From: a virus
IMG/VR virus record: IMGVR_UViG_3300009788_000212
Coordinates: 1 to 35,870 of that record
Reading direction: 5' to 3' (one strand)
Length of the DNA: 35,870 nucleotides
Positions 3,943-35,870 of this stretch are shown here, in pieces. The notes below the pieces were generated by a model. That model worked only from the letters and a program-made list of their open reading frames with translations, did no database searches and was not told the origin of the DNA. The position numbers and the translations under genes are program-made. The stretch's first letter is position 1. Every line of letters starts with the position of its first letter.

Positions 3943-3944
3943 AG

Positions 3945-11142: not shown

Positions 11143-11520
11143 CTATGTGATCTTGCGAGTGGCTTGAATCATCTCTCCCGGGAAATACTTCTCGTACAGG
11201 TCTACGCGGTCCTCGGGCACAGTGAGCCAGAATGTCGGTGTAGGGGCGTCCTTCAGCTTCTCATGAGCTTCGAGCATCAGTGAGAGCATGTCGGTATCCT
11301 CGAGAGCCTTAACGCTCGGGCTCTCACCAATAGGGTCGAGTGTCGCTATATGCTTCATCTCAGGGCGTCGCTTGATTACCCCGTCTCGCCTCGGCATCAT
11401 ATTAACAGGATCGCGATAGTGGACGCGGTAGCCCTCGAACGGCTTCACCTTCCAAGGCCACACCAGCAGGCTGAGGAAGGCCGCGAGTCCACCCAGGAAG
11501 CCACGTCTCGAGAGGGTCAT
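11143..11520 (-). CDS. Tat-exported hypothetical protein, 125 aa
   Basis: The N-terminus MTLSRRGFLGGLAAFLSLLV is a textbook twin-arginine leader (S-R-R-G-F-L-G then a hydrophobic core), implying export of a folded protein to the periplasm. After the leader the protein is short, charged and helical, with a WLTVPEDRVDLYEKYFPGE stretch. No cofactor-binding motif is visible. The ATG overlaps the upstream stop (ATGA), and the gene ends eight bases before the Sec-leader structural gene. Tat leaders are rare in phages. The leader could also act as an uncleaved anchor. Confidence 0.75.
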   Translation of the reverse strand: MTLSRRGFLGGLAAFLSLLVWPWKVKPFEGYRVHYRDPVNMMPRRDGVIKRRPEMKHIATLDPIGESPSVKALEDTDMLSLMLEAHEKLKDAPTPTFWLTVPEDRVDLYEKYFPGEMIQATRKIT

Positions 11521-18283: not shown

Positions 18284-18284
18284 G

Positions 18285-21200
18285 ATGCCGGGCAATCCCA
18301 AAGCCGTCCAAGACTCCTTTGCTACTGGAGTCGTCGCACCCGAGATGTCTGCTCGTGTGGGATTGGCTCGCTATGCGAACGGTCTGATCGAGGGCACGAA
18401 CTGCTACCCCACGAAGACCGGAGCGCTGACCCGTAGGCGCGGGACGAAGTTCGTAGCGCTTACGAAGGACAGTGGCCTACTCACGGATGACGACACGGTA
18501 TCCACGAAGAAGGTGAGACTGCTCAACTTCGACTTCAATGAGGAGCAGACTCACTTCATCGAGGCTGGCGATCTCTATGCACGCTTCGGTACCAACGGTG
18601 GGCTCATCATCGAGGATGTCGAGAATGGCACTGCGATTGTCGAGGCAGCCACCTACAAGTGGACGCTCTCTTCGGGCTCGGTCTACTACCTGGATCTTCT
18701 GGCCGGCGGTGATCCTGAGATTGAAGAGCCGGTGGAGGTCTGGGAGCAAGTCCTCACCACCGAGGTTGAGTTGACGTTGGTTGTGGGTTTGCCTGCATCG
18801 GCTGGGGAGTGGACCTGGGGAGACTTTGATACGCTGGGCTTCGATACGGTCTATCTGGAGTTGAGCGATAGCGTAGACCCCGACACGAAGACCGATGGTG
18901 ATGTGGTCGCCACGAACTATGCCGGTGTGACTTGGCCTTACCTCGAAGCCCAGCTCTTCGATATCGACACCACACAGAGCGCCGATGTGATGTGGGCTGT
19001 CCATCCTTCCCACCCCCCGGCGAATGTGGTGCGTACGGGATCGGATGTTTGGGATTACGAGGTCATCGCATTCACAACGAAGCTGGTGGAGCCTAGCCTA
19101 GTAGAAGTGTCGTCTGGTGCAGGCACAACCAACTCTTGGAGATGGTTTGCGGGGGCAGAGGGTTACGACAGGATTGAAGGGCTCCCTTCTAGCTTGATCG
19201 TTGAGCAAACGGCTCAGCTTGATGCAACAAGCGTCGTCCTTGAGATTGGCGAAGATACTGTTGACGCCTATGAATACTTCCCTGATGGGAGTGACACGGT
19301 CTTCCAGATGGATCAAGTGGCACGTTTCGTGTTGTATCGGGAGCTGATCTTCGACGGGGCTACCAGCGGAGACCAGCTAGGCACTGCTGGCTTCATCGCT
19401 GTAGTGAATCCAAGAGTCACTGATGACGAAGGCTGGAGCGATTCGCTCAAAAGAGTATTCAGCAGGCCCAGTGCAGGCCCAGCCGGGGAGATCACCATCT
19501 TCTCGCATAACCTGTCGGTCGACGACCGAATCCGCTTCCTTACTGTGGGCGAGGATGCCTCGGGGACCAACGCGCTCGGCGAAAGCCCGGAGGATGTGCT
19601 GCTCCGCTTCATGTTCAGCGTATCCTCTGTTGTGAGTGCAAACATAATTACAATCGACTATGTGGAAGTTCCAGATGAGCCATGGAGTCGCAGCGGGCTA
19701 GTCGATACTGGCAATTGGGAGATTGTCTCGAATCTCGTCATTCCAACCTTCGTGAATCCTGTCTGCCAGCCAATACTACCCGTTGAGTTCACAGACAATG
19801 GAGGCGTACTGCCGGACTACTCAGACACCCCGCTTGAGGTGAATACTCTTTTCACGCTGATGGGTGATTTCCCCAGCGCGGTCACGTTCTTCGATCAGAG
19901 GCTATGCTTCGCCGCTACGGACGATGCCCCTCAAGTGCTTCACATGTCACGACCCGGAGACTTCAACAGCTTCAATCAACGAGGAGTCATCAAGGACGAC
20001 GACCCAATCCAGAAGTTCCTCCCCGCAAGACAAGCGAACCGAGTGCGCAACCTCGTCCCGCTCTACGATCTGGTAGCCACCACCGGAGGGGCCATCTTCC
20101 GAATCTGGAGTGAGTCGGGTGTCGTCTCCGCTCGCGAGCTTCAGCTACGTCCCCAGACAGAGCGAGGCGCTTCCAACCTGGAGCCCGTCGCCATCTTCGG
20201 AACGGCTGTGTATGTCAGCGACAAGCGCAACCAAGTCTTCCTCCTCTCCCAGCGCGACAACACCTTTGGGTATCAGGACAGCGAGCTTTCGATCTACGTC
20301 GAGCACTACTTCAAGGGTCGCACAGTGGTGGACTGGGCCTATGCGGCGGCTCCTGATTCTGTCCTCTGGGTCGTGATGTCGGATGGCAAGTTTCTGAGCT
20401 TCACCTACATCCCCGATCAAGAGGTATGGGCATGGGCCGAGCATGAGACGGACGGTTGCGTGGAGTCGGTTACCACCACTAGAGAGGGTGGGGTGGATGC
20501 GGTTTACTTCTCTGTCTTGCGCACGCTGTCTGGGATAGCCCCTCCTAACCAACTTGTATGGGCGAGACGAACGATTGAACGCATGGAGACGGAGGTACCA
20601 ACGAACCTCTTGACTTCAATAGACATTGATTGCGCATTCGTCTTTGAGGCCGATCTAGTCCCGTTGTCTGGCTTGCTAGCCGGGGTTGCAGTCACATTGA
20701 CTACCACATCGCCACATGGGTTCAGCACGAACGATATCATCTTTTTGGATGGCGTTGAGACATTGCCAGCATCTGGGGTGAACGATGCCGGGTTGACTGC
20801 AGAAGAAGCCCTGAATGGCAAGCGCTTCAATATCGAAGTCACGACAACCACTCAGTTCAAGCTGAGAAGTGTGGACACAGTAATTGATATCGAAGGAGTA
20901 AATTGGTCAATTGTCTTTGCGGACCTATCCGGTGTAGAGGTTAGAAAAGGCGTTACTACTATCAGCGGGCTTCACTATTTCATTCAACGGAACAGCCCAT
21001 TCTTCGGCATGAATGTGGTCATGAAGCACAATGGCGTAGACCCTGCAACGGACACGGAGCAATACCAATACCTAGTCGAAGAGAACCCCACAGTATCAGC
21101 TTCTGGTGTTGTGACTATATCTCAGCCCGCGACTCACTTCATGATCGGATTCGGGTATGAATCAAGGGCGACCACCACAGACTTCTCGACAAGGCAGGAG

Positions 21201-21536
21201 AATGCGCGACAAGCTCAGGGGATACAGACCAATCCTACCGAAGTTCTGCTGAGGGTTCATGACACCTTGGGGCTGGAAGCGGCAACGCAGGTGGGGACCT
21301 TCCGGCCTATGAAGGCCAAGGCTAGTGCAGGGCTCGGGTACGACTCGATTGCACTGAAGGGCGCAACATACGACAGCACGCAAGGCATCATGAGAACAGC
21401 GCTGAGCGGAGACGGGAGGGTGGTTCTGGCGGGAGAGTGGGACGGAGTAGGCAGGATCAGTGTCAAGCAAGCGCCAACAGAAGCCGTTCCGTTTACGCTG
21501 CTGGCGATTCTGCAGGAGGTCATTGATGGGCGTTAG
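18285..21536 (+). CDS. Tail tubular protein B-like nozzle protein, 1083 aa
   Basis: The nozzle protein forms the distal tail tube (gp12 type). The N-terminus is diagnostic: SFATGVVAPEMSARVGLARY, then NGLIEGTNCYPTKTGALTRR before GTKFV. Later comes a repeat-rich beta body, with SAVTFFDQRLCFAATDDAPQ and SRPGDFNSF near residues 527-560, the family's typical R-L-x-F/A-G...S..G...F region. The length exceeds T7 gp12 (about 790 aa); the excess is largely in the middle and C-terminal thirds, perhaps extra exposed domains. The start ATG lies one base after the previous stop (TGAGATG). Confidence 0.87.
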   Translation: MPGNPKAVQDSFATGVVAPEMSARVGLARYANGLIEGTNCYPTKTGALTRRRGTKFVALTKDSGLLTDDDTVSTKKVRLLNFDFNEEQTHFIEAGDLYARFGTNGGLIIEDVENGTAIVEAATYKWTLSSGSVYYLDLLAGGDPEIEEPVEVWEQVLTTEVELTLVVGLPASAGEWTWGDFDTLGFDTVYLELSDSVDPDTKTDGDVVATNYAGVTWPYLEAQLFDIDTTQSADVMWAVHPSHPPANVVRTGSDVWDYEVIAFTTKLVEPSLVEVSSGAGTTNSWRWFAGAEGYDRIEGLPSSLIVEQTAQLDATSVVLEIGEDTVDAYEYFPDGSDTVFQMDQVARFVLYRELIFDGATSGDQLGTAGFIAVVNPRVTDDEGWSDSLKRVFSRPSAGPAGEITIFSHNLSVDDRIRFLTVGEDASGTNALGESPEDVLLRFMFSVSSVVSANIITIDYVEVPDEPWSRSGLVDTGNWEIVSNLVIPTFVNPVCQPILPVEFTDNGGVLPDYSDTPLEVNTLFTLMGDFPSAVTFFDQRLCFAATDDAPQVLHMSRPGDFNSFNQRGVIKDDDPIQKFLPARQANRVRNLVPLYDLVATTGGAIFRIWSESGVVSARELQLRPQTERGASNLEPVAIFGTAVYVSDKRNQVFLLSQRDNTFGYQDSELSIYVEHYFKGRTVVDWAYAAAPDSVLWVVMSDGKFLSFTYIPDQEVWAWAEHETDGCVESVTTTREGGVDAVYFSVLRTLSGIAPPNQLVWARRTIERMETEVPTNLLTSIDIDCAFVFEADLVPLSGLLAGVAVTLTTTSPHGFSTNDIIFLDGVETLPASGVNDAGLTAEEALNGKRFNIEVTTTTQFKLRSVDTVIDIEGVNWSIVFADLSGVEVRKGVTTISGLHYFIQRNSPFFGMNVVMKHNGVDPATDTEQYQYLVEENPTVSASGVVTISQPATHFMIGFGYESRATTTDFSTRQENARQAQGIQTNPTEVLLRVHDTLGLEAATQVGTFRPMKAKASAGLGYDSIALKGATYDSTQGIMRTALSGDGRVVLAGEWDGVGRISVKQAPTEAVPFTLLAILQEVIDGR

Positions 21537-22553: not shown

Positions 22554-24262
22554 TGCCCACCGTACCGGCCACTCCCGTCTCGAGAACGCGCCAGCAGATC
22601 CTGGGTGCGCCGGCTCGCATTGGAACCATTGATGACTTGAGTGGCTTGGGGTCGGCGATCAGCGGTCTTGAGCAGACGGTGACTGGCGAGATCACTGCTC
22701 ACATGCAGAGGCTCAAGACGGAGGCTGATGAGAACGAGGCGATACTCGCCCAGTCTCAGTACCTCGATACGATGAATGCTGCCCATTACGACGGGGAGAG
22801 CGCGTTTCTCAATCGCAAGGGCAATGCCGCTCGGAACTCCTTCTCGGATGGCCGAGATTTTGCCAACGCACAGCTAGAGAGCATTGCCAAGTCTCTCTCT
22901 CCTGATGCTTCCAAGCTGTTTAAGCGTGCTGCGAATCAGACCCGGGCCAACTTTGGGACTCAGCTCATCAAGCATGTGGGAGCGCAGACAGAGCAAGCTC
23001 GTGTTGAGGCTCTTGCGGCCAGCCAAGCTTCGCTGCAAGAAGCCTTTACGAAATCTCGTGACCCTGAGGAGCGTGAAGAGATCGCGACGGCGCTAGATGC
23101 TGTGTTGGATCGGCAATCCGTGGGTTCGACTCCTGAAGCCAAACAGGTGATGAATGACTTCAGCGATGGGAAGATCACTGGAGAGGCTGCGGTCAACGCC
23201 CTCAACCGAGGGGACATCGAGGATGCCAAGACGATCCTTGCTTCCGACCGAGGCAAGCACATCGAGGAGTCTACACGCATCAAGGTTCAGAATGGCATCG
23301 ACGAGAGTGAGCATCTGACTGCTGTGCAGGGGACGGTTCAGGAGGCTCTAGTCCGGTTCTCCGATCCCACCAAAGCAGAGGATGCAGAGGCATGGATCAA
23401 GCGCAACAGTAGCGGGGCGGTGCAGGGAGACTCCATTACGAACATTCGCAAGTTCCGCTCTGCAGAGGCCACCGCAGAGACCGCCCAGCGAAAGGCAGAG
23501 AACGAAGCGGCCCACTCATTCACCGATGACATCTTGGAGCAACAGAAGCGGGGCGGCGCGCAGATGGACACGAAGTCTGCGATAGCCATGGGTCAGCAGC
23601 TCGCCTCTCGCATCGAAGACCACACGAAGAGGAATTCGTTCCAGCGTCGATGGGATGATGAGGTGACGAATCATTTTGCCACTGTGACCAACCAATCTCA
23701 ATACAGCCAGCTAGACAACATGACGTGGCAAGAGATGCAGGACGTGGATTTGAGAGAGGCAGTTCTGGAGCGAGAAGACTATCAGAAGCTTCTGAAGAAG
23801 CAGAACACCACTCCAAGCAATCACACGAATCTCACATCCATGATGAGCAACGCGATCTTCGACCTTGGCCTAGATCCATCGAGCACGCAGGCGTTCAATC
23901 TTCGCCAGAACTTCAAGCATGACATCGAGGTATTGGAGAAGAAGGTTGGCCCTCTGAGCCAGTCAGAGCTTGACGATGTGATGCAGAAGCTGAAGGAGAA
24001 CTCGAAGGATACGAACTTCTGGTTCTGGCAGGATGACACAGACATCAGCTTGCAGAGCATCAGCAAACAGTTCCAAGAGATCCCGGATCAAGACATCGAG
24101 GTCGTACGAGACCAGCTGGCACGCACGTTGGGCAAGAGACGTGAGGATATTCAGGAACGTGAGATTGTCTCTGCGTATCGACTCTTCCTGAACCAGCAAG
24201 CGATTGGCCTGGGGCGTATCGCAGAGCCTCAAACAACTCAGCAGCAAGAGCAAGAGCAATGA
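22553..24262 (+). CDS. Internal virion protein C-like, 569 aa
   Basis: The ATG shares its first base with the preceding TAA. After a short N-terminus the protein is almost entirely helical, rich in Ala, Glu, Gln and Asn (for example LDTMNAAHYDGESAFLNRKG and NFGTQLIKHVGAQTEQARVE). It ends in a Gln/Glu tail. Gene position and composition match the T7 gp15-type core and ejection protein, part of the trans-periplasmic DNA channel. No catalytic motif was seen. It overlaps the next gene by four bases. Confidence 0.78.
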   Translation: MPTVPATPVSRTRQQILGAPARIGTIDDLSGLGSAISGLEQTVTGEITAHMQRLKTEADENEAILAQSQYLDTMNAAHYDGESAFLNRKGNAARNSFSDGRDFANAQLESIAKSLSPDASKLFKRAANQTRANFGTQLIKHVGAQTEQARVEALAASQASLQEAFTKSRDPEEREEIATALDAVLDRQSVGSTPEAKQVMNDFSDGKITGEAAVNALNRGDIEDAKTILASDRGKHIEESTRIKVQNGIDESEHLTAVQGTVQEALVRFSDPTKAEDAEAWIKRNSSGAVQGDSITNIRKFRSAEATAETAQRKAENEAAHSFTDDILEQQKRGGAQMDTKSAIAMGQQLASRIEDHTKRNSFQRRWDDEVTNHFATVTNQSQYSQLDNMTWQEMQDVDLREAVLEREDYQKLLKKQNTTPSNHTNLTSMMSNAIFDLGLDPSSTQAFNLRQNFKHDIEVLEKKVGPLSQSELDDVMQKLKENSKDTNFWFWQDDTDISLQSISKQFQEIPDQDIEVVRDQLARTLGKRREDIQEREIVSAYRLFLNQQAIGLGRIAEPQTTQQQEQEQ

Positions 24263-27200
24263 CCGCACCGTTCAAAGATCCCAATGAGCCGGTAAGCTCG
24301 CGTGAGCAAGCGTTGCGGGATTCCGTCTCGGGATGGACCGACAGGCGCAATCGTCGTCAGCTCGACGCTTATACCGAGTCCAGCAAGATCAACCCCAAGG
24401 ACTTCTCGAACCTCAATCGAGCGGTAGGACCGGGTCAGGCTCGTTCTCTCATCGGGACCCCTGAAGGTTCAGAGCTGATTCGCAAGTCGGCAACATTCGA
24501 TGATCTCACGAAGCATCTCAGCAAAGCCCCCAAGCTGGACAAGGCCCTTGAGTTCGATCCTGACCTCCTCGCCGTAGCCCATCCCGACATCAGCACCTTG
24601 GCCAGTATTGAGGAGACGCTGAGGGGTGGGGCGAGGAACACAGCCCTGATCGCCGGGCAGGTAGGTGCGGGTGTTGATGATGCCATCGTTGCCGTTCGTG
24701 GCTTCGATGAGCTTCACTCAAAGATCCTCGGCCTCGACCCTCCATCAGCGGCGCAAGCAAGTGAGCTTCTGCTGGCTCAGTTCAGGCAGAAGAGCGCGGC
24801 AAGAGACCTAGAGGCGGCGGATCTGGGAGAGGTCGGCACCGCCTTCGCTACGATCGCGCGAGCCTCCCCTCAGCTTGCCGCCGGCTTCACTGCCTTTCTT
24901 GGCGGCACTGCCATTGGCGGTCCACTCCTCGGTAAAGCACTCACTGCCGCCCAGTCCTACGTGTTCGAGTCAGGCAGCGTCTACGTCGAATGGACCTATG
25001 GGGCTGATCCAATTGACCCGGATCTGGTGGAGGTGTTTGCTCCCGCCTATGGAGTCTTTGCTTCAGTCATCGAGACCATTGCGGTAGGCGCTGAGTCTGC
25101 ACCGATCAAGCACGCGCTGAAGCAGGCCATGAAGGCTGGCAGCAAGAGCAAGGCAACTAGACTGATTTTGGGCAACTTCACGATGGAGCTGTTCCGAAAC
25201 GCGCTCATCGAGGGGGGCGAGGAGACGGTCCAGCAGGCTGCTCAAGTCTTCCTTGGAGCGCTTGGAAGACACCCTGGAGACCCCGATGGATTCGTGAATG
25301 ATCTGCTGAGTGAGGAGACACTCGCCTCTCTGCTGCAAGCCTTCAAGGCAGGGGCCACAGTGGGTGGAGGGATCGGAACAGTTCGGGCGGGGGTCGGAAC
25401 AGCGGTTGATCTCAATTCGGCAAGGCGCGATGCAGAACAGGAGAAGCAGTTCGGGCAGGAGCTTGCAGAGGGCGTGAGCAAGGCTGAGATGCTGGATCAC
25501 TCGCCGGCCAAGTTCAAGAACCTGCTGTTCCAGATGACTGAGGGGACGCCTCAGGAGGATGTCTGGATTGACGCGGATACCTTCCTCGACCACTTCACAA
25601 AGCCTGAGAATGCTCAAGCGCTCGATGATCTACGCACGGCCATCCCTGATCTCGATCAGCAGATCTTGGAAGCCCAGAACGCGGGCTCCGATATCGTCAT
25701 GAAGACGGCTGACTTCGCCACTCACATCGCAGCCACGCAGCATCTCGATGGCATCAGCGATGGGCTGAGATTCTCCCCGGACGCCCCCACTCTCGCCGCC
25801 CTGAATCAGGAGGCCACGGATCGCGAGGCTGAGGCTCTGGAGGCAGAGATTGAGAGGGAGGCGGGGACTCTCGAGGTAGACGAGCAGATCGAGGTGCGAG
25901 ATGCGGCCATTGCCACCATGACCGATCGGGCAGTGGATGACCTTGGCCTGACGAGACGAGAGGCTGAGGCATTCGCCACGGTGAAGGTCGCCAATCTGAT
26001 GACCCTCGCCCAGACGGAGAACCTTGACCCGGCAGCGTTCGTCAATGCTGCGATGGGCAGGCTCCCTCTGCAGAGACGAGAGGATGTCCCGGAGCCGGCA
26101 GAATTCGCTGAGTTGCAAGAGGGTGTCGAGCCTCTGGTGGAAGGTGCAGCGCCAAGGCGAGCAGCTCCGCAGAAGCGGGAAGATCTGGCAGACGATAAGG
26201 ATCCTGAACTAATAAGCAAACGTACAGTGTTTGCGCTTGATCGTATACGTGACGGTAGGCCCATTCGCGGAAAGACTGTTGAGTCAACAGAAGCGATGGA
26301 GGATTTCATAGAAGATGTGAGAGCCGTCATGGATGCGCTGGGCATTGATGTCAATCAGCTCAGTAACGACGAGATCCTACAGAGACTCGATGAAGCAGGC
26401 AGCGACCGGATAACGGAGATTGTAGATAGCAGAGACGACACCGACAAGAGAGTCCTAAAGCAGCCCACCGAAGAGAAGCAGCTTCCTCGTGGGTTCTTCG
26501 CAAGGTTCGAGGGCGGCGGCGGACTGCTGGCACTGACCTCCAAGGCCAACAAGAGCACCGTGTTCCATGAGCTGAGCCACGACATGTTCAGCGTCATGCA
26601 GGCCCTTGCTCAGAGAAGCGAGGCGAGCCCGGACCTGCAGGCCGATTGGGCGATTCTTCGCGACTGGCTGGGAGCCAACGACCAAGACACGCTGACCGAT
26701 GCGCAGGAAGAAGTCCTCGCTGAGACGATGGAGGTCTACTTCGAGGAGGGGAATGCCCCCACCCAGGAGCTGCAATCTGTCTTCGACCGGATCTCCCGCT
26801 GGATGACCGAGACGTATCGCAGGGTGCGGGGCCGGCCCAATGCCGACATCAACGATGATGTTCGAGAAGTCTTCGAGCGCATGTTCGCCACTCAGGAGGC
26901 GATCGAAGCGGCAAAGGCAGACCTCGGCTTCCAAGATGTCTTCCAGGGTCGCAAGCCAGAGGGGATGACGGATGCGGCTTGGGAGAGGGCACAGGCTCGT
27001 GTCCGAAACGTGGAGAGCGAGATCAATGAACGGGCCGGCAGGAGGGTCTTCAAGGCGAAGCTGAAGGAGGTCAATGCTGCTGCTGTCGAAGCCCGAAATG
27101 CTGTCAGAAAGACAGTGACGCAGCAGCTGTGGGATGACCCCGCGTACCGGGCCCGCAGCTGGCTGCGCACTGGCAAGCTGCCTGATGGAAGTGAGCTGCC

Positions 27201-30200
27201 CGCAGAGCACTCGCGTCTGTCATGGGCTGGGATTCTGGAGGTTCTCAGCGATCTGCCCGAGGCGCAGCAGCAGGAACGCCTTGCCACTCTGAAGCTCATG
27301 AGGCTCACCAAGAAGGACGGGATGGACCCTGAGGTGGCTGCCCAGGCGCTTGGACTAGACGATGCCGCCGAGATGCTGGACCTCATGGAGGGCATCAAGG
27401 ACCAGACACTCACTCAGGCCATCAAGGCTGAGACTGAGAAGCAGATGCAGGAGCAGCACCCGGAGCTTCTGGTCTCTCAGGAAGAGCTGAAGGCTCAGGC
27501 CGAGGCTGCAATCCTCGACGTCGACTCCCGCCTGAAGAACATGGAGCAGACCATCAAGGCTCTGCGGAAGCTGGATGCGGAGAGCCCCGGGAGAGCGGCG
27601 GCAGAGAGGGCGGCAGTCACCACCCCTCTGGGCGTTCAGGAGGCCGAGCGCAGGCTGGAGGTCGCTAGGGGAATCCTTGACTCGGCCACCCGCAGAGAGG
27701 ATACGAAGCGCTCCACGCTGACTCGGTTCGCTCTGGAGGTGAGACAGGCCGAGGAGAGGCTCAGGATCGAGCGCAGACGCGCTAGGCGCGAGCGTATGGC
27801 CGCCACCGAGGCCACCCGGGCAGAGAGAGCCAGGGGCAGGGAGGCCCTCAGAGAGCAGCGTGAGGGGCTTCGTGGGGCCGCGGCAGAGGCGCTTTCAGAA
27901 GAGCGGCGGCAGAGTGCTGCGAGACTGGTTGAGATCCGTCAGGGCGCGGCTCTGGCTACCCAGTTGCCCAACATCGGAGCCCTCAGAGCCGCCGCTGCAG
28001 AGCGTGTGGAAGCCACCTCAGGGCGCAAGCTCAAGTCTCTCGTCGCCAACTTCCGCATCGTGTCTCAGGTGAAGACGAAGGAGGCCATCAGGACAGCAGG
28101 CCGCGGCGATTACGGGGACTCTGCAGACGCTCTCGAGACGGTCATCGTAGCCAACGAGATTGTTCGTCGTGGTAATCAGGCGCTGATTCGTCGAGACAAG
28201 GGGCAGAGGAAGCTCGTCCCGATGACTCGGGCGAAGTTCCAAGGCCCGAAGCTCTCAGAGACCAAGAATCCCTCTGAGGCGTCCCGGCACATCTGGGCTC
28301 ATACGTTCAACATTCTCGACCGCTACGAGCTGCGAAAGACGACGAAGGACGTTCAGGCAGTACCCGAGCCTCGGGATACGGACGGGAAGAACTTCCAGAC
28401 CTTCCGCCAGGACTACGTGGAGAAGACCGGCGAGCTTTGGAAGGGTCCCGAGTTCCTCGACGATGCCGGCCACAAGGTCAGCTATCTCGATCTGACAGTC
28501 AGTGACTTTGACGGGCTCATGGAGGGGATCACGAACCTACAGACTTGGGCCAATTCGCTGACCCGCGTCTCGAAGGAAGAGGGGAAAGAGTCCTTCCTCC
28601 AGGCCAACGAAGAGATGATTGCCGACGCAACTGCCTTCGGTACGGGCCGCAGTATCCATATCCCCAAGGGCGCGGGGAGCATTGCGGAGAGATCCGCCAA
28701 GGCAATCGACGCCGTCTACGGGACGATCAATCGCCCGATTTTCGGCTTCCGTCTACTGGATAGCCAGAACATCCAGGGGGCGTTCAAGCGCAACATTGTC
28801 GACCCCTTGAAGGGAGGTGCGTTCTTCCGCCTTGGCTTCATGAAGGACCGCCAGGAGCAGCAGAACGATCTGTTCGAGAGAGTGTACCGCCCCAAGATTC
28901 CAGAGGGAGCCTCGACAGCAGAGCGGCTGCAGTCGTTTCGCGAGTTCCAAGCGATCAGCCGCCGATTCATGAGCAAGACCTTGGCTGGCTCGAGAGAGAT
29001 CGCAGGCATCCCCCTCACGCGCAACAACCTGATCCAGATCATGCTCTACTGGGGGAGCCCCGAGTCACGTGCTGCTCTTGAGAATGCAGACGAGAGCCCC
29101 ATGTCCGAAGAGGTCGTGATGAGCCTCATCGGGAAATACGCAACTCAGCAAGATCGAGATTACGTGGAAGGCATCTGGGCCTTGCCAGAGCAAGACTGGT
29201 CGGCGCTCAGCGAGCTTCATATGAAACTGACCGGGACCGCTCTCAGGAAGGTCGATCCCCTTCCGTTCACCACGCCTCAAGGCTGGAACATGACCGGCGG
29301 ATACTCTCGGATGTTCTACGAGAGCGAGTTCTCCCAATCCAACATCAAGAAGGCAGAGAACAAGGACACGCTATCTGCGCTCACCTACAAAGGCTCGATG
29401 ACGATCCAGACGCCCAGCGGACAGCGAAAGCATCGAAAGGGCAACGCGGGCAATCAGCTGATGCTCACGCACACGATGGTCTGGAATCGTCAACTCAATG
29501 AGACCGCGAGTGACTTGGCCTATGCCGAGGTTGTTCCCAAGGTCATGAGGTTCATCAATGACAAGGATTGGAAGAGGGCTGTCAGTAAGGCGCTCGGCTC
29601 CCCGTTTGTTCAAAAGCTTCACAATTGGGTCGAGACCGCAGTAGCGCCTCAGTACCAGCCTGATGTAGCCGCAGACGTCTGGGTCGATCGCGCCCGTCAA
29701 GCTGGTGTCATGCAGATCATTGGAGGCAGGGCTTCCACTGTGCTGGTCCAGCTCACTGGGCTTGCTTCAGCATTCCCGAGGCTGGGCCAATACACGTTCG
29801 TGGGGCTCAACAGCCTTTTGAACGATGGCTGGGCGAGGGGGGCATCTAGACCGGAGTCTGGGGCAGGGCCACACAGGTTCTTCCAAGCCATGAACCGGAT
29901 GATCGAGCTTTCGCCTCCGCTCCAATTCCGCCGGCAGACCTACGACCAGAACGCCAATGACTTCATCAGCCGGGGCAAGTTCCCTTCCGGGATGAGTCTG
30001 CGCTTCGTGCAGTGGTATGCGGGCGTGATTGGCTATGTGGATTCTCTGGTTGCTGGGTCTGTGTGGGCAGGAGCCTATCAGCAGGCGATGGACGGAGATG
30101 CGAGAGCGGTGAGTGAAGGTGCCGTAGAGGGGGATCATGACCTTGCGGTGAAGTATGCGAATGACCTGATGGAGGTCACCCAAGCGGCTGCACAAAGCCT

Positions 30201-30774
30201 AGACCTCGCCTCATTCATGCGTAGCAAGAACCCTCTGTGGAGGAGCCTGTTTTCGTTCAGCACTTGGATCAATAACCGCATGAACCTCACGATCGAGGAG
30301 TTCAGCATAGCCAGACAGGCGGGCGGGTTCGCAGATTGGTGGAGGTTCAGCACCTACATTGCCAGCACCTACATTCTGGACGCGGCTGCGACTGTCGGGA
30401 TCGGTTACTTCTTGGCCGGCTTGCGCCCAGAGGACGAGCCGAGAGACCCCGAGGAAGCTGCAGGGCGTATGGCATGGTCCCTGTTCAGCAACTTCAACTC
30501 TGGGTATCCAGGTGCCAGCCAGATGAACTCTCTGCTGAGGCCGGTGGTGTTCGGCGGACAGATCCGAAAGCTCGACTTGGGGCCGGCAGGAGACGCAGCG
30601 CAGCAACCCTTCATCGCACTCCAAGCTGCAGTCAAAGCATCCCGTGGCGAGGAAGAGTGGGAGAAGGCGTTCATCGAGGGCGTTCACACTGTCGGGTATT
30701 GGTACAACGCGCCGACACAGAACATGATCGACTTTGCGGAGATGGTTCTGCAGACAGAGATCGACAAGAAATAG
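24259..30774 (+). CDS. Giant internal virion/ejection protein with zincin motif, 2171 aa
   Basis: This occupies the gp16 position. It begins with polar helices, then hydrophobic segments (residues about 195-235 and 255-345). Residues 764-776 contain STVFHELSHDMFS, with HELSH at 770-774, the HExxH motif of zinc metallopeptidases. A downstream EEVLAETMEVYFEE stretch (about 814-830) offers a third ligand. A long charged coiled coil spans about 1054-1230. The C-terminal third (from about 1490) matches large polyvalent phage proteins: DSQNIQGAFKRNIVDPLKGG, NNLIQIMLYWG, then GIWALPEQDW and TTPQGWNMTGGY. No transglycosylase motif was found, unlike T7 gp16. Likely ejected into the host with a protease domain; proteolysis is untested. 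Confidence 0.85.
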   Translation: MTAPFKDPNEPVSSREQALRDSVSGWTDRRNRRQLDAYTESSKINPKDFSNLNRAVGPGQARSLIGTPEGSELIRKSATFDDLTKHLSKAPKLDKALEFDPDLLAVAHPDISTLASIEETLRGGARNTALIAGQVGAGVDDAIVAVRGFDELHSKILGLDPPSAAQASELLLAQFRQKSAARDLEAADLGEVGTAFATIARASPQLAAGFTAFLGGTAIGGPLLGKALTAAQSYVFESGSVYVEWTYGADPIDPDLVEVFAPAYGVFASVIETIAVGAESAPIKHALKQAMKAGSKSKATRLILGNFTMELFRNALIEGGEETVQQAAQVFLGALGRHPGDPDGFVNDLLSEETLASLLQAFKAGATVGGGIGTVRAGVGTAVDLNSARRDAEQEKQFGQELAEGVSKAEMLDHSPAKFKNLLFQMTEGTPQEDVWIDADTFLDHFTKPENAQALDDLRTAIPDLDQQILEAQNAGSDIVMKTADFATHIAATQHLDGISDGLRFSPDAPTLAALNQEATDREAEALEAEIEREAGTLEVDEQIEVRDAAIATMTDRAVDDLGLTRREAEAFATVKVANLMTLAQTENLDPAAFVNAAMGRLPLQRREDVPEPAEFAELQEGVEPLVEGAAPRRAAPQKREDLADDKDPELISKRTVFALDRIRDGRPIRGKTVESTEAMEDFIEDVRAVMDALGIDVNQLSNDEILQRLDEAGSDRITEIVDSRDDTDKRVLKQPTEEKQLPRGFFARFEGGGGLLALTSKANKSTVFHELSHDMFSVMQALAQRSEASPDLQADWAILRDWLGANDQDTLTDAQEEVLAETMEVYFEEGNAPTQELQSVFDRISRWMTETYRRVRGRPNADINDDVREVFERMFATQEAIEAAKADLGFQDVFQGRKPEGMTDAAWERAQARVRNVESEINERAGRRVFKAKLKEVNAAAVEARNAVRKTVTQQLWDDPAYRARSWLRTGKLPDGSELPAEHSRLSWAGILEVLSDLPEAQQQERLATLKLMRLTKKDGMDPEVAAQALGLDDAAEMLDLMEGIKDQTLTQAIKAETEKQMQEQHPELLVSQEELKAQAEAAILDVDSRLKNMEQTIKALRKLDAESPGRAAAERAAVTTPLGVQEAERRLEVARGILDSATRREDTKRSTLTRFALEVRQAEERLRIERRRARRERMAATEATRAERARGREALREQREGLRGAAAEALSEERRQSAARLVEIRQGAALATQLPNIGALRAAAAERVEATSGRKLKSLVANFRIVSQVKTKEAIRTAGRGDYGDSADALETVIVANEIVRRGNQALIRRDKGQRKLVPMTRAKFQGPKLSETKNPSEASRHIWAHTFNILDRYELRKTTKDVQAVPEPRDTDGKNFQTFRQDYVEKTGELWKGPEFLDDAGHKVSYLDLTVSDFDGLMEGITNLQTWANSLTRVSKEEGKESFLQANEEMIADATAFGTGRSIHIPKGAGSIAERSAKAIDAVYGTINRPIFGFRLLDSQNIQGAFKRNIVDPLKGGAFFRLGFMKDRQEQQNDLFERVYRPKIPEGASTAERLQSFREFQAISRRFMSKTLAGSREIAGIPLTRNNLIQIMLYWGSPESRAALENADESPMSEEVVMSLIGKYATQQDRDYVEGIWALPEQDWSALSELHMKLTGTALRKVDPLPFTTPQGWNMTGGYSRMFYESEFSQSNIKKAENKDTLSALTYKGSMTIQTPSGQRKHRKGNAGNQLMLTHTMVWNRQLNETASDLAYAEVVPKVMRFINDKDWKRAVSKALGSPFVQKLHNWVETAVAPQYQPDVAADVWVDRARQAGVMQIIGGRASTVLVQLTGLASAFPRLGQYTFVGLNSLLNDGWARGASRPESGAGPHRFFQAMNRMIELSPPLQFRRQTYDQNANDFISRGKFPSGMSLRFVQWYAGVIGYVDSLVAGSVWAGAYQQAMDGDARAVSEGAVEGDHDLAVKYANDLMEVTQAAAQSLDLASFMRSKNPLWRSLFSFSTWINNRMNLTIEEFSIARQAGGFADWWRFSTYIASTYILDAAATVGIGYFLAGLRPEDEPRDPEEAAGRMAWSLFSNFNSGYPGASQMNSLLRPVVFGGQIRKLDLGPAGDAAQQPFIALQAAVKASRGEEEWEKAFIEGVHTVGYWYNAPTQNMIDFAEMVLQTEIDKK

Positions 30775-30784
30775 GAGAAGCACA

Positions 30785-31276
30785 ATGATGGACGAAGGCG
30801 CACACAGGAGATACGCAAGCGAGATGGGAGAGGGCTTCATCGGAAGCTTTGTTCTGCATCTGTTGACGTTCATCGCCATGCTCGCAGTCGTGATGGTCAC
30901 CAGCTCTGCTGATGCAGCCGAGTGGCTGAGGGGCAGCAGGACAGTGGAAGAAGTCGCTCCATGGAGTGGGGCCAACTACACCCCAGACGCAGACACCACA
31001 TCCCCAGCCCTGCACACGGGGAAATGCGGGGGAATCTATGTGGACTGTTGGGGGACGAACCTTTCCTCCCTCGTCCAGACCTGCAACGATCGGTATGAGT
31101 ACGATGTGGGGCTCGACGCAACTGAGTGCAAAGACTTCAACCTGACTGCCATCACATGCGGAGGCTCTGCAACCGGGATTCAGATCTTCCCAGCCCCGGA
31201 ATGGATTCGCATGGAGGCGGGTACGAACTTCGGCAGCGGGCAATTCTTCCGTGTGTTTTGTAGCGGGAGTCGCTAG
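30785..31276 (+). CDS. Secreted or membrane-anchored Cys-rich protein, 163 aa
   Basis: The ATG follows AGGAGAAGCACA directly after the ejection protein gene. The first 25 residues are polar, then GFIGSFVLHLLTFIAMLAVV and a SADAAEW site form a Sec signal or anchor. The mature part has about seven cysteines (KCGGIYVDCWG, TCNDRYEYDVGLDATECKDF, TCGG, FCSGSR) and suits a disulfide-bonded periplasmic or extracellular domain. It is the first of three consecutive exported proteins ending with the sulfatase. No family was recognised. Confidence 0.7.
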   Translation: MMDEGAHRRYASEMGEGFIGSFVLHLLTFIAMLAVVMVTSSADAAEWLRGSRTVEEVAPWSGANYTPDADTTSPALHTGKCGGIYVDCWGTNLSSLVQTCNDRYEYDVGLDATECKDFNLTAITCGGSATGIQIFPAPEWIRMEAGTNFGSGQFFRVFCSGSR

Positions 31277-31284
31277 GAGAAACC

Positions 31285-31857
31285 ATGAGACACTTCATCG
31301 CACCTCTCATCGCCATGCTCTTGGTGGCTACGCCGGCTTCGGGCGTTCTCTACCCCTCGGACAACCTGTCTGGGGGTGGGCCGAACAACATCCCCTTCAC
31401 GATGCACTTCGGGGGGGCCTCGTCTACATGGCCCACGACTGTCATTTGCCTCCGCAGTACGGGGTCAGGGTCCTATATTTCATGTGCTGATGGGGAATTT
31501 GACGACGAGAGAATCCTCACACCCTATTCAGGCCAAGTGTTCGTGCGGCAGCTAGCCTGCGCGCCGGCCGATGACTTCACGATATGGGATGGAACGGGGA
31601 CGCCCTCGATTTCGCTTTCCGTCTACGAGACGCAGGGCGGGTCGGGTACGCTCGCCTATTCCCGAAATCAAATCGGAGGAGCGCTCACCTTTTTGAAGAC
31701 CGACGAGCCCGGAGTCACAAAGACACTCACCATCAATGCTTTCACGACCATCGAAAACGGGATGATCCAGGTCAAGCCCTCTGCGGTCGTAGAGGCGGGG
31801 GGGGCTCCCGTTGCTCAAGTCAACGGGTTCACCTGCATCATCAGTGGCTACGAATGA
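31285..31857 (+). CDS. Secreted hypothetical protein, 190 aa
   Basis: A TAGGAGAAACC leader precedes the ATG. MRHFIAPLIAMLLVATPASG is a classic Sec signal peptide with cleavage near PASG-V. The mature protein is beta-rich and Gly/Ser/Thr-rich with four cysteines (VICLRSTG, SCADGEFDD, LACAPADD, FTCIISGYE), like a small beta-sandwich adhesin or carbohydrate-binding domain. Its stop overlaps the sulfatase start (ATGA), tying it to the enzyme. Function is unknown; substrate binding for the sulfatase is a hypothesis. Confidence 0.75.
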   Translation: MRHFIAPLIAMLLVATPASGVLYPSDNLSGGGPNNIPFTMHFGGASSTWPTTVICLRSTGSGSYISCADGEFDDERILTPYSGQVFVRQLACAPADDFTIWDGTGTPSISLSVYETQGGSGTLAYSRNQIGGALTFLKTDEPGVTKTLTINAFTTIENGMIQVKPSAVVEAGGAPVAQVNGFTCIISGYE

Positions 31858-33299
31858 GGGGCCTTCTCTGCACGCTGCTCCTGCTGCTGTGGGCTCTGCC
31901 GGCTGCCGCTGCGGACCCGCCCAACATCATCGTGTTGGTGGCGGATGACGTAACGGCGTGCTGGTTCGGCGTATACACAGCCGATCGCGTAGAGTGCAGC
32001 GAGGCGTACCTGACCCCGAGGATCGACACCTTGGCGGCGGGGGGGGTGGTGGTCAAGACCGCATGGGCGATGCCGACGTGTACTCCTTATCGAGCCGCGA
32101 TGATGACCGGGACATTCCCCACGGAGAACCGTGTGGGGCGCACGATCCTGTCTGCCTCAGGGGGCACCGGCCTCTCTGCGGCTCGGCCCAACCTTGCGAG
32201 GGCGCTAGAAGCGGGAGGCTACGACACCTATCACTTCGGCAAGTGGCACTTGGCAGGCACCGCACTCGGGGCAGGCCAAACCATCCACCCGTCCTCGATG
32301 GGGTTCACAGCAGGGCGAGGCTCCATCGGGAATGTTGGGAACACCACAGATGGAGCCGAGGGCGGTGAGAGCTACACCGACTGGCAGCTTGTCGACTTCA
32401 TGGCTGGCACGACCACGGAAGAGAACACCTACGCAACCACGTTCACCATCGACGATGCGATACTGGTGCTCAACAACGCAGAGCCGTGGTTCATGTCGAT
32501 TCAGCTCAATGCTCCGCACAACCCACAGCACCAACCAACCCCCGGTTTGTTCGATGCCACGGTGGACTGCGAGGAGGGGGGCGCGGGAGGTGATCTGCCC
32601 GAGATCTGTTACAACCGGGCCATCCAAGCCCTCGACACTGAGCTAGGCAGGCTGCTCGACCATGGCGACTACGATCCCACCGACACGGTCATCATCATCA
32701 CCTCGGACAACGGGACGCCACTGTCGATTGCGCAGGCCACTCAGCCGGCCTGGGAAGACGACCGATGCAAGCAGACGGTCGGCGAGTGCGGGCTGTGGGT
32801 GCCTCTGATCGTCAGCGGGGCAGGAGTCGGGACCGGGACAGCAGACATCCTGGTCCAAGCTACTGACCTCCACGCGACGATCCTCGAGATTGCTGGGGTG
32901 GAGAACATCGCAGCGGGCCACACCACGGGGTCATTGGTTCCCTCTCTTGGCGGCCATCAGATCAGGTATCGAGGCATAAGCTTCTGGAACAACATGGTCG
33001 ATCCGACTCTTCCCTCCAAGCGGAGCTGCATCTACGCCGAAGAGTTCAACGATTCCTCGGGTGTTCGTGTTGACTGGAACGAGGCGATGAGGACCGACAC
33101 CTACAAGCTCATGAGGCACAAGACTCTGGGTACTGAAGAGCTGTTCTTGACAGCTACCGCGATCCGAGAAGACCCTGCGTTTACACCTACCGGGGACGTG
33201 ATCCCAACTCCCTACGCCGGGGCAGACGAGATCGCCTACGACTTTCTGACTGAGAAGATGGACGCAATGACTGCAGCCGGGGGAGACCCTTGCAGGTGA
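31854..33299 (+). CDS. Secreted type I sulfatase (formylglycine-dependent), 481 aa
   Basis: Sulfatases remove sulfate esters from sugars or small molecules. A Sec signal peptide (MRGLLCTLLLLLWALPAAAA) precedes PPNIIVLVADDV, the family's metal-binding start (D31, D32). The formylglycine motif is intact: C76-T-P-Y-R80 followed by AAMMTG. GKWHL (K130, H132), APHNPQH (H222) and SDNG (D285, N286) complete the active site, so it looks functional. ATG 31854 overlaps the upstream stop; a longer frame would lose the signal peptide. Conversion of C76 needs a host FGE or anaerobic maturase, as none is encoded here. It lies in the T7 tail-fibre slot. Target may be sulfated envelope polysaccharide; this is inference. 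Confidence 0.93.
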   Translation: MRGLLCTLLLLLWALPAAAADPPNIIVLVADDVTACWFGVYTADRVECSEAYLTPRIDTLAAGGVVVKTAWAMPTCTPYRAAMMTGTFPTENRVGRTILSASGGTGLSAARPNLARALEAGGYDTYHFGKWHLAGTALGAGQTIHPSSMGFTAGRGSIGNVGNTTDGAEGGESYTDWQLVDFMAGTTTEENTYATTFTIDDAILVLNNAEPWFMSIQLNAPHNPQHQPTPGLFDATVDCEEGGAGGDLPEICYNRAIQALDTELGRLLDHGDYDPTDTVIIITSDNGTPLSIAQATQPAWEDDRCKQTVGECGLWVPLIVSGAGVGTGTADILVQATDLHATILEIAGVENIAAGHTTGSLVPSLGGHQIRYRGISFWNNMVDPTLPSKRSCIYAEEFNDSSGVRVDWNEAMRTDTYKLMRHKTLGTEELFLTATAIREDPAFTPTGDVIPTPYAGADEIAYDFLTEKMDAMTAAGGDPCR

Positions 33300-33622
33300 C
33301 ACTCGAAGACGACTTGTCTGTATGGGGGAAGATCATTGGTGCCATACTCGGCGCAGTAGCCTTGATTGGCACACTGCTCAGTGTAGGCAGGGAATGGACT
33401 GGCATGAAGTGGCGAGTCAAGAACTTAGAGGGACAAATGGAAGACACAAAAACTGCCCTGCTGAGAATGCACGAACAAGCGAATGAGAACACCAGACAGG
33501 CAATGGAGGCCACTCAGCAGGTTGCACTCTACGCCGAGCGTCTTGAGGGGAACTCGAAGCTGATGGTAGAAGCCATGAACTCGATCAAGGCCAAGGTAGA
33601 CCGACTGGAGCAGCACCAATAA
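33296..33622 (+). CDS. Membrane-anchored coiled-coil protein (holin or spanin-like), 108 aa
   Basis: The GTG at 33296 overlaps the sulfatase TGA (GTGA) and has GGGGGAGA at good spacing; an in-frame TTG two codons earlier is less likely. One transmembrane segment (WGKIIGAILGAVALIGTLLS, about residues 10-30) is followed by a long charged coiled coil to the C-terminus. The topology matches an N-in anchor with a periplasmic coiled coil, as in inner-membrane spanins, but could also be a holin-associated protein. It opens a block of small membrane proteins. Confidence 0.65.
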   Translation: MTLEDDLSVWGKIIGAILGAVALIGTLLSVGREWTGMKWRVKNLEGQMEDTKTALLRMHEQANENTRQAMEATQQVALYAERLEGNSKLMVEAMNSIKAKVDRLEQHQ

Positions 33623-33879
33623 TGGAGCTAATCACAGATCGCCTCATCACAGTGGCCGTGAGTGCGGCCGTGATGGGCGTCGGTAGCTGGTTCGGTCTGG
33701 ACGAGATCGGAAAGGCGAAAAAGTCTGCAGACGCGATGGCAATTCACTACGTCCCCGCCCTAGCACAATGTGAGGCTAAGCGCGATACTAGGCTCGCAGA
33801 GCAACGAAGCGTCTGTCGTGAACTACTTGAGGCAGAGAGAGAGAACACAGCGCAATGGCGCGCTCAGTGCGGAGGATAG
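33622..33879 (+). CDS. Small membrane protein with coiled coil, 85 aa (Rz-like)
   Basis: The ATG shares its A with the previous stop (TAATG). The N-terminal hydrophobic segment (RLITVAVSAAVMGVGSWFGL) is followed by a charged helix with two Cys (LAQCEAKRDTRLAEQRSVCR) and an end of Cys-Gly-Gly. This is the size and layout of an inner-membrane spanin (Rz). The call rests on topology and a lipoprotein gene nearby. Confidence 0.55.
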   Translation: MELITDRLITVAVSAAVMGVGSWFGLDEIGKAKKSADAMAIHYVPALAQCEAKRDTRLAEQRSVCRELLEAERENTAQWRAQCGG

Positions 33880-33881
33880 AA

Positions 33882-33950
33882 ATGCCTTACAAGAAGCCAT
33901 CAACGAGGCCCAAGCCTAGGCCGAAGCCCAAGCCGAAGAAGGGGAAGTGA
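33882..33950 (+). CDS. Lys/Pro-rich micropeptide, 22 aa
   Basis: A GGAGGATAGAA ribosome binding site precedes an ATG that encodes a 22-residue peptide starting MPYKKPSTRP and continuing as repeated Lys-Pro and Arg-Pro pairs to KKGK. The stop overlaps the next ATG (TGATGG). About 11 of 22 residues are basic. Similar tiny basic proteins (MPYK...) occur in other phages. It could bind DNA, RNA or the envelope. Confidence 0.6.
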   Translation: MPYKKPSTRPKPRPKPKPKKGK

Positions 33951-34147
33951 TGGAAGATCAGATCGCGAACGTGCTCAACTCGGTGATTGACCAGACTCAG
34001 ATAGTGCTGGTACCTCTTGCAGCCGCCGGACTCTGTGCATGGATTTCGCCGTTTGTCAAGGACTCCCGATTCAGACAGGTGATGAAGTTCGTCAATGCGG
34101 TGGGGGGAAATGTACGCAACGCACGCAACGACAAGGGAGTGAACTGA
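33950..34147 (+). CDS. Small membrane protein, holin candidate, 65 aa
   Basis: ATG 33950 overlaps the micropeptide stop; a GTG one codon earlier is also possible. The protein begins MEDQIANVLNSVIDQTQIVL and has a single hydrophobic segment (IVLVPLAAAGLCAWISPFV). A basic, Asn-rich C-terminus follows. A small single-TM protein with a charged tail in this position suggests a class III-like or pinholin-like role, but no holin family was recognised. Confidence 0.55.
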   Translation: MEDQIANVLNSVIDQTQIVLVPLAAAGLCAWISPFVKDSRFRQVMKFVNAVGGNVRNARNDKGVN

Positions 34148-34341
34148 TGCGGATCAAGGGACTGATAGTCCTACTCAGCACTATCGCACTGGTGGGGTGT
34201 CAGACCCCCAACATCGAGGCAGGCGTCACGGGCTCTGGAGTCCGCGCAGACGTGCAGTTCTGCTTCGACGACAGTGACCTCGGGAAGGGCATCGACAAGT
34301 ACACTGGGGGGCTTCTGAGCAGCCTGATGGGGTGTCCGTGA
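34147..34341 (+). CDS. Outer-membrane lipoprotein (Rz1-like), 64 aa
   Basis: The ATG overlaps the previous TGA. MRIKGLIVLLSTIALVGC is a lipoprotein signal peptide with lipobox L-V-G-C18. The mature part is only 47 residues, with two further cysteines. Small lipoproteins at the end of a lysis block usually act as outer-membrane spanins; those are often Pro-rich, and this one is not. A longer frame from 34039 is out of phase with the overlapping gene and unsupported. It is the last gene of the head-tail-lysis operon. Confidence 0.65.
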   Translation: MRIKGLIVLLSTIALVGCQTPNIEAGVTGSGVRADVQFCFDDSDLGKGIDKYTGGLLSSLMGCP

Positions 34342-34986: not shown

Positions 34987-35441
34987 TGGTCTCCCTGCTC
35001 CCGATACCAGCACCACATCCCCGCCGCGTAGTTCGCGATGTCGAGGCACTCCCGCATCGCTGCCTCCGGCTCTAAGCCGCGCGCCTCGAGCCCCTTCTTG
35101 ATGATCTGGCCCATCAGGAAATCAGGCGACCCCAGCAGCCGAGGAATGCCCAGGATGGGCTGCTCGAGGAACGGGCGGACGAGCATCGACTCACGGCTGA
35201 ACTCACGGCCTCCGTTGGCGTGGCGCTGGTGGCCCTTGCCGGCGGTGGCCCGCTCGAGAGCGCCGTCGAGGAACTCCCGGAGAGGGGCGTAGGGGTCGGG
35301 CGCGGCGGTGTCGTCGGGGGTGGGTTCGAATGCGCGCTCGGGTGAAAGGTCATGCAGGTGGTAGTGCAGGCTCGCTGGACCCAGAATCCTACACCCTGGC
35401 CACGTGCATCGGTCTTCGCAGCCCTTCTCGTCTCCGGTCAC
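34983..35441 (-). CDS. Zinc-motif hypothetical protein, 152 aa
   Basis: The GTG at 35441 overlaps the PEP-CTERM gene stop (GTGA) and has AAGGGGAGGGGGAAG as ribosome binding site; an earlier GTG lies inside that gene without one. The N-terminus has CEDRCTWPGC followed by H-Y-H-L-H, a likely zinc site. A disordered Pro/Asp-rich linker follows. The C-terminal domain (SPDFLMGQIIKKGLEARGLE, then RECLDIANYAAGMWCWYREQ) resembles nucleotide-modification-associated or DUF1599-like helices. Cytoplasmic, unlike its neighbours. Function is unknown. Confidence 0.65.
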   Translation of the reverse strand: MTGDEKGCEDRCTWPGCRILGPASLHYHLHDLSPERAFEPTPDDTAAPDPYAPLREFLDGALERATAGKGHQRHANGGREFSRESMLVRPFLEQPILGIPRLLGSPDFLMGQIIKKGLEARGLEPEAAMRECLDIANYAAGMWCWYREQGDQ

Positions 35442-35870
35442 GTCTTCCCCCTCCCCTTCATCCACCACAACACCCCCAGCCCCGCCAGCAGCGCCAAGCC
35501 GCCCGGCTCAGACACATACTCCGTAGGCACGCACCCAGTGGGCGTAGCGATCACATTGCTCCACTCCGAGTAGCCCCCAGCCCCGAGGAAGCGCATACGA
35601 GACAGGTGGCACCCGTCAGGGACCTCGAGGTCGATTTCCCCGTACCACCAAGGTTCCATTGTCGCCGCCGGGTGCCAGAAGCCCAGCAACTCCTCACCGA
35701 ACACCTCGAACTGGATCGTGGCGTGGTCCGCGTTAGGGGACCCAAGGAACAGTCCATCACCACACGGGGGGACGACTTGGCACATGCCTGAGGTGAGGCA
35801 GGGGTCTATGTTGGGATCGTACCAGCGGTGCGTGACGGTTGTAGCGTGGGCATTGGTGGCGAGGATGAGG
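35438..35870 (-). CDS. Secreted protein with PEP-CTERM-like sorting tail (5' end outside window)
   Basis: The frame stays open to the window edge, so the gene starts beyond it. The first visible residues (LILATNAHA-TTVTHRWYD) look like the end of a Sec signal peptide. About 110 residues of beta-rich sequence with eight cysteines follow. The C-terminus is SEPGGLALLAGLGVLWWMKG plus RGKT: an E-P-G motif, a hydrophobic helix and a basic end, the tripartite PEP-CTERM design (consensus VPEP, here VSEP). Such tails are processed by exosortase in Gram-negative bacteria with exopolysaccharide loci. A phage product using that pathway is unusual. No exosortase gene is visible here. Confidence 0.75.
   Translation of the reverse strand, partial: LILATNAHATTVTHRWYDPNIDPCLTSGMCQVVPPCGDGLFLGSPNADHATIQFEVFGEELLGFWHPAATMEPWWYGEIDLEVPDGCHLSRMRFLGAGGYSEWSNVIATPTGCVPTEYVSEPGGLALLAGLGVLWWMKGRGKT

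Follow-up and report, generated by a model that had tools for sequence, protein, structure and literature searches.

A predicted exported S1 sulfatase gene in the tail-fibre slot of a BPP-1-type podovirus genome

What does a tailed phage gain from a secreted sulfatase that is encoded where its relatives place a tail fibre or tail spike? The question is raised by the IMG/VR virus record IMGVR_UViG_3300009788_000212, a DNA of 35,870 bases that is termed the window here. The original prediction, made from the letters of the sequence, described a complete secreted type I sulfatase within a T7-like virion operon and pointed to a contradiction between the signal peptide, which argues for export, and the location in a slot for virion genes. 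The record is classed as linear and has no terminal repeat, thus the window is probably a fragment; the genomes of its relatives are mostly about 38–47 kb.

The sulfatase open reading frame starts at the ATG at position 31854, ends with the TGA at position 33299 (+ strand) and has a translated sequence of 481 aa. The search with a sulfatase profile that the original prediction had proposed shows a match to the Pfam Sulfatase family PF00884 (E-value = 1.9e-25, 90.2 bits against a cut-off of 25), and residues 23–349 of the protein encompass the whole profile. In an alignment of 56 sulfatases that includes the window protein, D31, D32, R80, K130, H222, D285 and N286 are invariant, and C76, H132 and K306, all three of which the window protein has, are conserved in at least 90% of the sequences. 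The set of calcium and catalytic residues in the aligned columns (D31, D32, D285, N286, R80, K130, H132, H222 and K306) is therefore complete. The formylglycine motif C-x-P-x-R is represented by C76-T-P-Y-R80, and the Cys76 codon at positions 32079–32081 (+ strand) is, from the alignment, the predicted formylglycine site.

The AlphaFold model of the protein (pTM 0.87, pLDDT 79) displays the alkaline-phosphatase-like sulfatase fold, and S1 carbohydrate sulfatases make up all of its top PDB matches (E-values of about 1e-25, TM 0.64–0.78). Solved enzymes such as the S1_16 sulfatase 9FO1, the Hungatella sulfatase 6UST and the iota-carrageenan sulfatase 6BIA are comparable to it in fold, active-site residues, the C-x-P-x-R motif and a Sec signal. 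They differ in that the identity is only about 20–23%, the window gene is located in a phage late operon, and the motif is CTPYR as opposed to the common C-[ST]-P-[ST]-R. The nearest solved structures are of the S1_16 and S1_19 types and are too distant for a SulfAtlas subfamily number to be given; NCBIfam yields no subfamily assignment above cut-off. As judged by its residues and its modelled fold, the gene is predicted to encode a catalytically complete S1 carbohydrate sulfatase, and the claim that all type I motifs are intact is borne out.

The N-terminal 20 residues (positions 31854–31913, + strand) have the appearance of a Sec signal peptide with an AxA cleavage site before D21, as had been proposed. 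By sequence reading the signal is MRGLLCTLLLLLWALPAAAA, DPPN follows the cleavage site, and no lipobox is present. Similar signals are found on planctomycete homologues, and most of the cellular homologues checked carry Sec signals; the phage therefore probably inherited its signal and retained it. The catalytic domain begins 2–3 residues past the cleavage site, and the signal and the S1 domain together use up all 481 aa. There is no attachment domain, trimerisation region, beta-helix or N-terminal tail-binding domain, and the features that mark a tail spike, i.e. an N-terminal virion-binding domain together with a beta-rich trimeric shaft, are not found in this protein.

A formylglycine-generating enzyme (FGE, PF03781) was not found in the window phage sequence. 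FGE is encoded in all 10 of the 10 planctomycete genomes tested that hold relatives of the sulfatase. In phage annotations the word "sulfatase" is also used for the FGE-sulfatase (PF03781) domains found in tail proteins and in DGR target proteins (for example PMC12724379). These domains are not sulfatases but ligand binders of the C-type-lectin fold or relatives of FGE, and they are absent from the window.

The sulfatase gene overlaps each of its neighbours by 4 bp. An ATGA (positions 31854–31857, + strand) combines the upstream stop codon with the sulfatase start, and a GTGA (positions 33296–33299, + strand) combines the sulfatase stop with the GTG start of the next gene. No Shine-Dalgarno sequence is present ahead of position 31854, therefore translation of the sulfatase is probably coupled to that of the upstream gene, in agreement with the coupling to phage genes that had been predicted. 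The GC3 value is 0.75 for the sulfatase gene versus 0.70 for its two upstream neighbours, and there is no compositional break.

Upstream of the sulfatase (all + strand), positions 24259–30774 encode a gp16-like internal virion protein of 2171 aa (phrog_9880) with an STxxHExxH domain, which serves as a marker of the lineage. It is followed by two genes without a known family in the tail-fibre slot: a 163-aa protein (positions 30785–31276) that begins with a membrane or signal segment, and a 190-aa protein (positions 31285–31857) with a clear Sec signal, MRHFIAPLIAMLLVATPASG, cleaved before V. The latter is predicted to be mainly beta in a fold of low confidence (pLDDT 34). The small genes downstream of the sulfatase, also on the + strand, have the look of a lysis module by anatomy, and PHROGs gives only weak matches to unknowns for them. 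They encode a protein of about 108 aa with one membrane helix and a coiled coil (positions 33296–33622; holin- or inner-spanin-like), an 85-aa protein with an N-terminal membrane helix and a charged tail (33622–33879; spanin-like), a 66-aa membrane protein (33947–34147; possible holin) and a 64-aa lipoprotein with the lipobox LVGC (34147–34341; outer-spanin-like). These four designations are by anatomy only.

The portal (phrog_332, positions 12819–14576, + strand) is 26–29% identical to those of BPP-1/Carin-1-type phages, and the tail nozzle protein (phrog_376, positions 18171–21536, + strand) anchors the structural module. A protease/scaffold-like protein (phrog_458), a capsid protein (phrog_212), a tubular protein (phrog_394), an internal virion protein (phrog_418) and TerL are also present. 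The portal, capsid, nozzle and gp16-like proteins are homologous to those of the BPP-1/AF/CP2/Carin-1 podoviruses and occur in the same order, which places the window phage, by these comparisons, in that lineage; the structural matches listed lie with it and not with T7. A T7-type single-subunit RNA polymerase was not found in the part of the open reading frames of this fragment record that was scanned. Thus of the "T7-like" operon of the original prediction the general podovirus plan stands, and a close kinship to T7 is not supported. The nozzle protein extends about 400 aa beyond its PHROG family, and an insertion at approximately residues 300–560 could house a receptor-binding part.

The location in a tail-fibre slot after the gp16-like gene is confirmed by the relatives, which place tail fibre or spike genes and lysis genes there. 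In MW202722 the gp16-like gene is followed by a tail fiber, a structural, a holin and an endolysin gene; in phage AF the order is two holins, the tail spike, the endolysin, Rz and later gp25. The gp31 protein of Carin-1, in the same slot, is an EPS depolymerase tail spike termed Dpo31 (PMC13317679). Carin-1 gp31 and AF gp19 share with the window protein the podovirus lineage and the slot, and they act on host exopolysaccharide. However both are tail spikes that depolymerise EPS, and Dpo31 has large virion-binding and beta-rich domains, whereas the window protein is predicted to be exported and to desulfate.

Sec signals recur in this slot. The relatives were the usable part of two sets of the best 80 IMG/VR records by the gp16-like domain, 155 in number, and slot genes were taken as those that encode at least 150 aa and occupy one of the three positions following the gp16-like gene. 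A home-made signal test of simple design scores 21 of the 342 slot genes as having Sec-like starts, versus 5 of 561 genes upstream of the gp16-like gene. Some of the 21 are of holin, endolysin or spanin type and some are chance, and several are plain fibre-like proteins. AF gp25 (L045:18234-19253) is fibre-like and has the Sec-like start MKRFLLAMALLPALAFA, followed by GPSD. The 671-aa protein at L063:13780-15792 shows a Sec signal and a common tail-fibre domain by sequence reading. Further fibre-like proteins with Sec signals are found at L283:16317-17216, L285:16191-17396, L294:16022-16819, L311:16281-17231 and L321:16234-17328. L027:14653-18937 holds two fibre-slot proteins with Sec signals, and one of them (L027:17063-18937) is a GDSL lipase/esterase (PF13472, E-value = 6.7e-11); GDSL esterases are another type of enzyme known for removing sugar decorations. 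The sulfatase therefore appears to be one case of a recurrent export of slot proteins, and the contradiction between the signal peptide and the virion slot is softened. A sulfatase was not found in the flanks of the 155 relatives. Another tail-fibre-like protein with an N-terminal Sec signal is located at L056:14593-15651 in a BPP-1/AF-type podovirus.

Among cellular proteins the best matches are in Planctomycetota, where 35 of 392 sampled genomes have a match at E ≤ 1e-28; the best match has an E-value of 1e-54, 38% identity and near full length. The best E-values in other phyla are 9e-42 (Verrucomicrobiota), 4e-36 (Acidobacteriota) and 2e-33 (Pseudomonadota), and these are the four phyla that were sampled at depth. 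The nearest relatives, at 36–38% identity, are Sec-signal sulfatases of one group of Planctomycetota; in an rpoB tree the best-match genomes group apart from the TBK1r, SV_7m_r, Gemmataceae and Kuenenia genomes (91–97% SH-aLRT at the separating and dividing forks). These sulfatases of Planctomycetota and Verrucomicrobiota (L181-L232) are of the same length class (about 460 aa) and share with the window protein clade-specific stretches, TYATT..D.A, PWF....NAPH.P.H.P and DTELGRLL among them. They differ in being cellular, with many paralogues per genome of these exported enzymes and an FGE in the genome, whereas a long branch leads to the window copy.

The window protein falls with the Planctomycetota/Verrucomicrobiota sulfatases in one clade with 100/100 support against other sulfatases, and this clade also takes in a few members from Acidobacteriota and Pseudomonadota. 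The gene was most likely acquired from a bacterium of the Planctomycetota/Verrucomicrobiota group. The donor within it is not resolved because the window protein sits on its long branch (1.6); a quick tree had nested the protein inside planctomycetes (98% SH-aLRT), a placement that careful trees do not resolve.

At the end of the window, positions 35438–35869 (− strand) encode a 143-aa fragment, open at the window end, which terminates in VSEPGGLALLAGLGVLWWMKGRGKT. This has the look of a PEP-CTERM sorting signal, with no NCBIfam match, and suggests a host with exosortase sorting. Because of the kinship of the sulfatase, the presence of FGE in planctomycete genomes and this PEP-CTERM-like protein, the host is likely to be found among Planctomycetota or Verrucomicrobiota. 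Podovirus portals of the same class were detected in 7 of 392 Planctomycetota genomes (L342-L351), as prophages or co-binned phages. In portal searches none of these contigs is closer to the window phage than are phage isolates, thus they do not fix the host.

Few sulfatases were recovered from 2.9 million viral contigs in one single-protein and three alignment-based scans, and the counts are a lower bound because of the short patterns on which such scans rely. When P0001, the gp16-like protein or the portal served as a single-protein query, nothing was recovered from IMG/VR or the genomes, and alignment queries were needed. Besides the window gene, the convincing phage sulfatases are those of L096/L100, L097 and L262. 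L262 (IMGVR_UViG_3300022413_000016, 48.7 kb) differs from the window phage in being a myovirus with a Mu/P2-type baseplate and tail-fibre genes. Its sulfatase of 409 aa belongs to the same subfamily, has a Sec signal and is 33% identical to the window protein; its formylglycine motif is CSASR. The gene is directly after tail-fibre-type genes (phrog_4492 and phrog_644) and ahead of a gene for a 1191-aa protein. Thus two unrelated virion types keep a sulfatase, exported as judged by its signal, beside or in place of tail-fibre genes. Grouping of the two genes as one clade is neither supported nor rejected by the AU test (p = 0.53), and one origin cannot be told from two.

L097:7731-9896 (47 kb) encodes a 722-aa sulfatase close upstream of TerL, which has N-terminal repeats of TVTV type and no signal; it is a candidate for a virion-attached sulfatase. 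At L096:7764-9311, in the 48-kb phage contig L096/L100, a sulfatase with a lipoprotein-like N-terminus lies beside the portal gene and further head genes. Three of these sulfatases, those of the window, L097 and L262, match phrog_19870, a family of unknown function, therefore sulfatase-like proteins are already present, unnamed, in sets of prokaryotic viruses. In BFVD the fold of the window sulfatase has no match to a tailed-phage protein, and confident sulfatase-type folds are found solely in giant viruses (Yasminevirus, Satyrvirus and Tetraselmis virus 1), which are viruses of eukaryotes and have 12–16% identity to it. The sulfatase matches in a "phages" collection were rejected as phage genes, as those inspected are in bacterial-looking polysaccharide-use loci or in a Salmonella chromosome. 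The "Bacteriophage sp." records MT835490, MT836299, MT835586 and MT835799 (L007, L088-L090) resemble polysaccharide-use loci of gut bacteria, and AFYI01000001 (L091) is a Salmonella chromosome contig. L092-L095 and L099 were set aside as short or bacterial-looking, and L099 has no PF00884 match.

As to function, an exported late enzyme, matured by the host, that desulfates the polysaccharide of the host surface or matrix around lysis is a reading for which we see roughly an even chance. The sulfatase would be a late product, translated in coupling with the slot gene before it and encoded immediately ahead of the lysis genes. The host Sec system would export it and a host FGE would convert Cys76 to formylglycine. 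As infection comes to its end, and after lysis, the enzyme would then take sulfate esters off the host's own sulfated surface or matrix polysaccharide. Desulfation may loosen the matrix and abolish sites of binding; progeny would thereby be released, would not stick to debris and would not re-infect lysing cells. The benefit would be progeny release and superinfection exclusion, a receptor-destroying logic like that of neuraminidase. The Sec signal, the lack of an attachment domain and the 4-bp overlaps within a late operon that ends in lysis-like genes are in favour, as are the Sec-signal sulfatase beside the fibres of L262 and the Sec-signal GDSL esterase in the slot of L027. However, the window genome has no FGE and would depend on the putative host for it, and the tail-slot position and the Sec signals on fibre-like proteins of relatives also fit an enzyme carried by the virion. 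Such an enzyme would end up on the tail despite its signal and desulfate the capsule or matrix at entry, in the manner of Dpo31 on EPS. It would share its slot with proven tail spikes (Carin-1 gp31 and AF gp19), and fibre-like proteins of relatives repeatedly bear Sec-like signals (AF gp25, L027, L063, L283, L285, L294, L311 and L321); the L097 sulfatase, whose gene adjoins that of the terminase, carries repeats at its N-terminus and lacks a signal. Yet the window protein lacks the N-terminal tail-binding domain, beta-helix and trimerisation region, its catalytic domain following almost directly on the cleavage site. Export would take it away from the cytoplasmic site of assembly, and AF gp25 is only a putative virion protein. 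We regard a tail location, the main alternative, as possible and somewhat doubtful. Of the roles first suggested, the opening or remodelling of a sulfated surface is favoured. A role as a tail adhesin is not, since the signal and the S1 fold are all that the protein contains.

The batteries of exported sulfatases of the same subfamily that Planctomycetota and Verrucomicrobiota use would be in keeping with an auxiliary metabolic gene, by which the infected host gains sulfate or sulfated sugars as nutrition. This is improbable: the gene has a coupled start between tail-slot and lysis-like genes and not in an early or metabolic cassette, and one enzyme that appears only shortly ahead of lysis would contribute little to nutrition. 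Lysogenic conversion, i.e. by a moron from which the host of a temperate phage profits, is more improbable still, although there are temperate phages among the relatives (BPP-1 and Ab31), related podoviral contigs inside Planctomycetota genomes and a weak integrase-like match in the window (positions 3592–4218). Morons normally carry their own promoter, whereas the 4-bp overlaps place the sulfatase in the late operon, and a repressor was not identified in the window. The gene is known from a single contig of assembled sequence, and several public "phage" sulfatase matches are bacterial (the gut scaffolds L007 and L088-L090 and the Salmonella chromosome L091), which would fit a chimeric assembly or a contig that contains bacterial DNA. 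We give this hardly any weight: the ATGA and GTGA overlaps are at both edges of the gene and its composition matches that of the neighbours. L262, an independent phage of another morphotype, carries a Sec-signal sulfatase of the same subfamily in a similar place beside tail fibres, so the window gene is not taken as an accident of assembly.

A wider proposal, tentative and rather unlikely at present, is that phages of sulfate-decorated bacteria, of at least two morphotypes, place in the tail slot Sec-exported enzymes that remove decorations (sulfatase, GDSL esterase) together with fibre-like proteins. These would act late and outside the cell, where they would strip or occupy host receptors or join virions only after lysis. 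If true, tail-slot proteins would be following a route that has not been described so far. In any case Sec signals turn up repeatedly on fibre-like proteins of the podovirus lineage, which raises the general question of where such proteins act.

Phages are known to cut capsules or to remove acetyl groups. A secreted enzyme that strips sulfate appears to be of a kind scarcely known from tailed phages: the literature searched contained no report of an intact, exported S1 sulfatase from such a phage, and the phage-sulfatase mentions in the literature examined concern FGE, FGE-fold proteins or host activity. With the phrases tried, no described phages of the putative host phylum (Planctomycetota or Verrucomicrobiota) were found in the literature. 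The sulfatase thus offers a directly testable enzyme for phages of that phylum. If active, it would imply that some bacteria, probably Planctomycetota or Verrucomicrobiota, bear a sulfated polymer on the surface that is of importance to infection by phages. The window together with the second phage suggests that some phages chemically edit the sulfated surface of the host.

Two further genes of the window are located between the terminase and portal genes on the opposite strand. One encodes a 369-aa secreted protein (phrog_8198, positions 10025–11134, − strand), and the other (positions 11143–11520, − strand) starts with the Tat-like sequence MTLSRRGFLGGLAAF.
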